Below are positions 13,288 to 49,313 of a DNA stretch of 64,000 bases, piece after piece. This DNA is from Haloarcula sp. CBA1127 (lineage in GTDB: Archaea; Halobacteriota; Halobacteria; Halobacteriales; Haloarculaceae): assembly GCF_001485575.1 (NCBI RefSeq), contig NZ_BCNB01000006.1, positions 124,001 to 188,000 on the forward strand. The letters run 5' to 3'. The position numbers and the translations under genes were made by a program. How positions within the stretch are numbered: position 1 is the stretch's first letter; each line of letters opens with the position of its first letter. The notes beneath the pieces were generated by a model. It saw nothing but the letters and a program-made list of their open reading frames with translations. It had not been told where the DNA came from and searched no databases.

Positions 13288-13425
13288 CATCCGCGAGCGT
13301 AGCGAGCGGTTCACCGCGCTCGAACGCCGTGAGAGCGCGACCTTTTTCGCCCACGTTTTTCGAGGAGCCTTCCCACAGCGCGCTCGTAGAGCGCGCGAGG
13401 AAAGGCGACGCTGAAAAAGGTGGTT
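13288..13425. repeat. Intergenic palindromic element, copy A
   Basis: An intergenic block between pan and the PQQ protein. It contains CTTTTTCGCCCACGTTTTT (13342-13360), an 8-bp perfect hairpin (GCGCGCTC, loop GTA, 13378-13396) and GAAAAAGGTGGTT (13413-13425). The ends pair (CCTTTTTC 13341-13348 with GAAAAAGG 13413-13420). The same 19-nt and 13-nt ends, with a different hairpin between, recur at 49189-49253. A motif GAGCGTAGCGAGCGG precedes it (13294-13308). The element overlaps the pan stop codon. Confidence 0.65.
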
Positions 13426-48536: not shown

Positions 48537-49157
48537 ATGGGAGTCCTCGAGAACAAGGCCCGCGCGCGGACGTTCTACAAGTATCTCTCGAAGGTGTACG
48601 ACCAGATCAACCCCTTCATCTGGGACGAACGGATGCGCGACGAGGCGATCGCAATGCTCGACCTTTCGCCCGACGACAAGGTCCTCGATGTCGGCTGTGG
48701 CACCGGCTTCGCCACTGAGGGGCTGCTCGAACACGTCGATACGGTGTACGGGCTCGACCAGAGCCCCCACCAGCTCTCGAAAGCCTTCGAGAAGTTCGGG
48801 AAGTTCGGTGACGTACGCTACCACCTCGGTGACGCCGAACGACTCCCGTTCAAGGATGACAGTTTCGACGCGGTGTGGTCCTCGGGGTCTATTGAGTACT
48901 GGCCCAACCCCGTCGACGCGCTTGCTGAGTGCCGCCGACTGACCAAACCCGGTGGCAAGGTCCTCATCGTCGGCCCCGACTACCCGAACTCAAGTGTCTT
49001 CCAGAAGATGGCCGATGCCATCATGCTGTTTTACGACGAGGAGGAAGCCGACCGGATGTTCACTGAGGCCGGGTACGAGGACTTCGAACATCACATTCAA
49101 CAGTCCCGGCCGGGCAGTCCGCGTGCGATCACAACGATTGCAGAAGTCCCCGAGTAA
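48537..49157 (+). CDS. SAM-dependent methyltransferase, quinone (MPBQ/menaquinone) type
   Basis: A 206-residue methyltransferase, MGVLENKARARTFYKYLSKV. SAM-binding motif I is VLDVGCGTGFATEGLL near residue 45; then YGLDQSPHQLSKA, GDAERLPF and the family-specific SIEYWPNPVDALAECRRLTKPGG and VGPDYPNSS. DQSPHQL and SIEYWP-P are shared with plant VTE3 (2-methyl-6-phytylbenzoquinone methyltransferase), for which an archaeal origin has been proposed. In haloarchaea it most likely methylates a menaquinone precursor. Its last 57 bp are repeated downstream (49257-49313). Confidence 0.87.
   Translation: MGVLENKARARTFYKYLSKVYDQINPFIWDERMRDEAIAMLDLSPDDKVLDVGCGTGFATEGLLEHVDTVYGLDQSPHQLSKAFEKFGKFGDVRYHLGDAERLPFKDDSFDAVWSSGSIEYWPNPVDALAECRRLTKPGGKVLIVGPDYPNSSVFQKMADAIMLFYDEEEADRMFTEAGYEDFEHHIQQSRPGSPRAITTIAEVPE
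49101..49157 (+). repeat. Direct repeat, copy 1 (3' end of methyltransferase gene)
   Basis: These 57 bp end at the stop codon of the methyltransferase gene and recur at 49257-49313 with five differences, all synonymous (CGG/CGA, CCG/CCA, CGT/CGC, GTC/GTA, GAG/GAA). Both copies encode QSRPGSPRAITTIAEVPE and a stop codon. Homology does not continue past the stop. Confidence 0.9.
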
Positions 49158-49256
49158 TCGCTTCGGGCACGAGCAAAGCGAGTGGCCGCTTTTTCGCCCA
49201 CGTTTTTACGGGGAGCGGTGACCAAAGGTCACCCGAGCCGGAAAAAGGTGGTTTGA
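49158..49256. repeat. Intergenic palindromic element, copy B, between direct repeats
   Basis: A 99-bp segment between the two copies of the gene end. It has GAGCAAAGCGAGTGG (49171-49185), CTTTTTCGCCCACGTTTTT (49189-49207), a perfect 7-bp hairpin GGTGACC/GGTCACC (49217-49233, AAA loop) and GAAAAAGGTGGTTT (49241-49254). The first 19 and the later 13 bases match copy A at 13342-13425, where the central hairpin is different. Confidence 0.7.
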
Positions 49257-49313
49257 CAGTCCCGACCGGGCAGTCCACGCGCGATCACAACGATTGCAGA
49301 AGTACCCGAATAA
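49257..49313 (+). repeat. Direct repeat, copy 2 (vestigial methyltransferase 3' end)
   Basis: 57 bp, 52 identical to 49101-49157, still encoding the same 18 residues and stop in the matching frame, but without a gene in front. The spacing between copies is 156 bp (a multiple of three). It looks like the original gene end displaced by insertion or recombination. Confidence 0.88.

Follow-up and report, generated by a model that had tools for sequence, protein, structure and literature searches.

The 64,000-nucleotide stretch of Haloarcula sp. CBA1127 analysed here (contig NZ_BCNB01000006.1, referred to as the window) contains a gene that ends twice, which raises the question of how the second end arose and what lies between the two. 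A class I methyltransferase-type gene is followed by a short element, termed E, and by an orphan copy of its own 3' end. T1 and T2 denote the functional gene end and the orphan copy, respectively. The features are, with the evidence in brackets:

48537..49157, plus strand: class I methyltransferase-type gene, 206 aa, with duplicated end (open reading frame; family name from the DVGCGTGF motif and the initial annotation)
49100..49157, plus strand: copy 1 (T1), functional gene end including the stop (direct repeat, codon comparison)
49158..49255, plus strand: element E, between T1 and T2 (resembles 12 other places in its own genome at an E-value ≤ 1)
49164..49188, plus strand: left hairpin of E (CGGGCAC..GTGGCCG), then CTTTTTCG (hairpin, T stretch and C as in haloarchaeal terminators, PMC7237163)
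49189..49207, plus strand: conserved core CTTTTTCGCCCACGTTTTT (exact or one-mismatch copies in 31/32 Haloarcula genomes; reversed control 0)
49197..49251, plus strand: long imperfect hairpin CCCACGTTTTT..GAAAAAGGTGG, fixed 3' end of E (covarying stems; covariance model 64.1 bits)
49252..49255, plus strand: TTTG junction from GGTGG to copy 2 (at other loci copy 2 mostly begins 0-8 nt past GGTGG)
49256..49313, plus strand: copy 2 (T2), orphan gene end including the stop (direct repeat, comparison with relatives)
13350..13423, plus strand: second E of the window, without gene-end duplication (covariance-model match)

The repeat described in the initial annotation is real, but its sizes (57 bp around a 99-bp gap) have to be corrected. 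T1 and T2 comprise 58 nt each, of which 53/58 are identical (91%), with a start-to-start distance of 156 and a gap of 98 bp. A chance repeat is excluded by the direct-repeat alignment score of 47, compared with a maximum of 14 across 30 shuffles. Codon comparison confirmed that the five differences (CGG/CGA, CCG/CCA, CGT/CGC, GTC/GTA and GAG/GAA) are all silent third-position changes, which leave the peptide QSRPGSPRAITTIAEVPE and the stop preserved in both copies, and that homology stops at the stop codon. Assuming neutral drift of copy 2 and silent-only drift of copy 1, the probability of 0/5 nonsynonymous differences is ~0.02. Taken alone, the silent-only pattern at this locus is suggestive evidence against a neutral copy 2. 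A tRNA-linked integration was rejected, since no tRNA was found in the window.

E belongs to a dispersed, structurally conserved family of covarying hairpin repeats. With a covariance model, 16 copies are detected in its own genome (E-value ≤ 0.001), 11-23 in each Haloarcula genome sampled and 1-37 per genome elsewhere in the Haloarculaceae, with one genus as low as 1-5. At least one match (E-value ≤ 0.001) is present in 84/106 genomes of Halobacteria, with weaker matches outside the Haloarculaceae. Part of the 98 bp from the window matches all Haloarcula genomes except one incomplete genome, and the exact 19-mer of the core is nearly confined to the Haloarculaceae, with 0 matches for the reversed control. 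Rfam 15 yielded no match for E above threshold, and assignment to a known RNA family was accordingly dropped. Neither the repeat nor a gene-end duplication around it was found described in our literature search, which covered open-access papers and little of the subscription journals.

The order within E is a terminator-like hairpin, CTTTTTCGCCCACGTTTTT, an apical hairpin and GAAAAAGGTGG. A structure alignment of 30 sequences contains 17 pairs, 6 of them with compensatory changes, and the DNA hairpin of the window E copy has a z of -4.0. The terminal inverted repeats form a CCAC-G-TTTTT / AAAAA-G-GTGG stem, which covaries in divergent copies. Haloarchaeal termination occurs at a C after a T stretch, in some cases with a hairpin ahead (PMC7237163). 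E shares this arrangement, with CTTTTTC on both strands, and transcripts would be predicted to end at CTTTTTC (plus strand) and at CCTTTTTC (minus strand). With its hairpins and T5-C stretches on both strands, E appears to resemble a bidirectional transcription terminator. E differs from the haloarchaeal terminators of that study (PMC7237163) in that its sequence and structure are specific to the family, its copies are dispersed and it is associated with gene-end duplications.

Some E copies deviate in structure. At L251, L268, L250, L273 and L274 a palindromic insert (GCCGAAAGACTCG ... GCTCAGCAAG or similar) separates the left hairpin from the E core and is possibly a nested second repeat. 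At L311 (genome G024, locus L254) E has an internal deletion through which CCGACGTTTTT directly abuts the end of copy 2, and this locus is a decaying T-E-T arrangement. A motif resembling GCCGCCTCCCGG recurs 3' of E copies in unrelated genomes (L334, L344 and L134). Between our genome and G029, orthologous E copies (L266/L263, L260/L245 and L262/L265) keep their place and flanks, and their stems are largely different; in L265 even the outer stem differs from that of its orthologue.

The initial annotation proposed to look for the element at other gene ends, and E indeed adjoins many of them. For detection, the left flank of E was compared with the sequence right of GGTGG, and a direct repeat was called if it outscored the best shuffle by 6 or more. 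Such a repeat of the adjacent gene flanks E in 66/151 copies with enough flank, a fraction that holds for this sample of listed matches, which are largely exact-core pattern matches and take in several Haloarcula orthologues of the window locus as well as several array members. In most cases T corresponds to the final 40-220 bp of the upstream gene, stop included. Its length varies from about 30 to 220 bp overall, so that a short target-site duplication of fixed size, as in MITEs, is not found at E. T2 mostly starts 0-8 nt past GGTGG, most often 4 nt (among the matches listed). T sequences are unrelated between loci and have no common core sequence; the duplicated genes presumably include etfA-like and gyrA-like ones, as we named them by their peptides. 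At L047, L055, L072 and L178 T is a gene start, which contradicts insertion of E solely at gene ends. Tandem T-E-T-E-T arrays are found at L044, L046-L050 and L113, at L127 and in G087, and the T-E-T pattern also occurs outside the Haloarculaceae (G061, G110).

Several details of these junctions and arrays were recorded. At twelve of the loci (L044, L064, L071, L076, L079, L103, L113, L123, L146, L153, L158 and L181) the junction reads GGTGG-NNN-Y, in which NNN matches the gene completely or nearly so and is followed by one extra pyrimidine in copy 2. Translation of T2 from GGTGG was rejected, since a comparison by hand of two loci showed T2 in a different frame relative to GGTGG at each. An etfA-like three-E array occurs twice in one genome (G005:C1:55835-57535 and 3340899-3342599), identical over 1.7 kb and near both contig ends; this is either a long duplication or terminal assembly redundancy.

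Duplication is not obligatory for E, since more than half of the listed copies are without detectable T, often carry an upstream GCATNC module and often face a convergent stop. The module is present in 50/82 E copies without T versus 6/61 with T, and a convergent stop codon lies 0-7 nt past GGTGG in 30/67 copies without T (both among the matches listed). E copies with T mostly begin 10-60 nt 3' of a codirectional stop. In the second E of the window (13350-13423) a convergent gene on the minus strand has its stop codon (TTA) immediately after GGTGG.

A single gene end in relatives, the empty site expected for an integrative element and sought on the suggestion of the initial annotation, was found without E at four loci. 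One is the window locus, where the gene ends once in G014, G020 and G030, and G014 and G030 run on into DNA resembling that after copy 2 here. L246 is filled in G029, G003, G001 and G007; in our own genome it is empty, and the flanks overlap by 52 bp (single T, no E). L254 is filled in G029, G003, G027, G008 and others and empty in G007, with an overlap of 44 bp. L047 carries a four-E array in G011, whose last T directly adjoins the old neighbour; in G010, G023, G025, G026 and G030 one T is found with the same neighbours. Empty and filled relatives may reflect gain or clean loss of E. At L047 gain is favoured, because the array is limited to G011.

The initial annotation further assumed that the old gene end had been pushed downstream. 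At L254, T2 and the downstream DNA match the gene end of the empty relative G007, with 21 discordant sites for copy 2 versus 2 for copy 1; this count covers G029, G003, G027 and G008, which probably go back to one common event. Copy 1 differs from the G007 gene end (FED-TGA versus FEA-TAA), and G014 and G030 compared with our own genome give 5 versus 1 for copy 2. At this locus T2, together with the DNA that follows it, represents the resident end, and T1 is the odd one. At L246, G029 compared with our own genome gives 3 for copy 2 to 1 for copy 1; G003, G001 and G007 tie against the relatives that match them best, and G019 and G017, which are more distant, favour T1. Away from the window locus, displacement of the old end is thus well supported at L254 and weakly at L246. 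At the window locus the discordant sites, counted by hand, are T1:T2 = 2:1 (G014), 3:2 (G030) and 2:3 (G020), so that here the empty relatives do not discriminate between the two copies.

Pooled over 53 T-E-T arrangements, which are not all independent because same-locus relatives are counted separately, the differences between T1 and T2 fall on the three codon positions as 38/38/177 (177/253 in third position) and correspond to 160 silent versus 64 replacement codons. If copy 2 had arisen by simple duplication and then drifted neutrally, such a strong silent bias would not be predicted. It is expected if a diverged allele was imported, and could also arise through selection on copy 2. At the window locus the distances are 4.5 within a genome versus 11.2 between genomes (0/20000 permutations), and lineage-specific replacements are common to both copies in G012, G011, G004 and G022. 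Since within-genome distances are low and such replacements are common to both, the copies have been homogenised or re-made repeatedly; they evolve mostly in concert. Copy 2 of G003 differs less from G001 copy 1 than from the copy 1 in its own genome (7 versus 11), and the same holds for G024 (6 versus 11). In G029, G003 and G024 copy 2 contains replacement or nonsense changes, and in G008 a frameshift; because of these changes it is not lastingly under protein-level selection. Hence the view that both copies evolved under such selection agrees with the strongly silent pooled differences but not with these copy 2 changes, and non-synonymous drift in copy 2, which the initial annotation had named as speaking against its reading, is seen in part at the window locus.

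We lean towards a history in which an E family, a joint gain of E with a second T, and recombination between species act together. The gain of E and the gain of the second T would be one event. For the joining step we can offer a guess: the GGTGG end of E might re-enter the homologous gene tens of base pairs upstream, on another chromosome copy. T2 would then provide E with a right-hand homology arm, and therefore homologous recombination could carry a gene end together with E into relatives. Among polyploid, mating haloarchaea such recombination would leave the resident end behind E as T2, and import of a gene end with E from another species would yield silent-only differences like those at the window locus. 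Short sequences are the basis on which this import between species is proposed. Later recombination between T1 and T2 may homogenise the copies, expand them to arrays or delete E cleanly. Gene conversion between chromosome copies is described for Haloferax, and haloarchaea are commonly polyploid (PMC10085750; further background on gene conversion and polyploidy, PMC4056108); by analogy, exchange between T copies would be plausible. A recent jump from another E is not witnessed, since orthologous E copies can have entirely different interiors and no near-identical donor was seen for the G011 array.

Ordinary tandem duplication would require that E was a prior terminator and that gene end and E were doubled by slippage or unequal crossing-over, with later loss or truncation of the second E. 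Tandem arrays exist, and a complete or partial second E is found past T2 at L046, L049, L079, L123, L124, L158 and L176. However, several relatives have the same L047 neighbours around one T and no E, the array ends in a T that directly adjoins the old neighbour, the junction is nearly always GGTGG rather than random, and the lineage affinities of T1 and T2 can differ. Pure tandem duplication is disfavoured by the empty sites; we retain it as a rival and consider it unlikely. A SINE-like insertion, primed by RNA or a nick and producing long variable target duplications, would account for the fixed GGTGG 3' end, the variable left extent with T of about 30-220 bp and the covarying RNA-like hairpin. 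It fits poorly with E copies that are not near-identical within one genome and with the copies carrying the upstream module, which mostly have no target duplication, and is thus quite improbable.

T2 might instead be retained by protein-level selection as a spare gene end, with phase-like exchange between T1 and T2. The excess of silent over replacement codons between the copies favours this, but the disrupted T2 copies at the window locus and the coexistence of empty and filled states among species make it very unlikely. The integrative element of the initial annotation, with a target gene-end copy in its attachment site, would explain the old end displaced downstream, the silent differences and the location at gene ends. 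This explanation is to be abandoned almost entirely, since E is ~100 nt long without room for a gene, since the family is found next to dozens of unrelated genes and is accompanied at each by that gene's own end, and since T has no common core and is at some loci a gene start.

Known systems resemble parts of the combined history of E gain and recombination that we prefer. Prophages and islands such as e14 and phage 21 in icd integrate into the 3' end of a protein gene and restore this end. As at E loci, the old end is displaced downstream and the new end is mainly silently different; they are, however, large, encode an integrase and use one fixed target gene, whereas E is ~100 nt, gene-free and has many targets. 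Palindromic MITE/REP repeats are likewise short, gene-free, dispersed and intergenic, but those known have short or no target duplications, in contrast to E, whose fixed end is joined to a variable copy of the adjoining gene end. Mycobacterial interspersed repetitive units (MIRU) are short units at gene boundaries that form tandem arrays, as E does; to our knowledge, MIRU arrays are not built with host gene-end copies as at E.

We tentatively propose, although it is open to considerable doubt, that E represents a new mobile or recombination-borne class: a gene-free hairpin whose fixed 3' end is joined tens to hundreds of base pairs upstream in the neighbouring gene, so that each gain duplicates the gene end and the duplicate serves as a homology arm for spread between species. 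If true, this would account for a recurrent, apparently undescribed signature of haloarchaea, gene end-hairpin-gene end, and would offer a route for swapping terminators and C-terminal codons between species. The differences between T1 and T2 would then record donor and resident lineages and could be used as natural markers of interspecies recombination. The proposal also bears on how palindromic intergenic repeats may spread without a transposase of their own.
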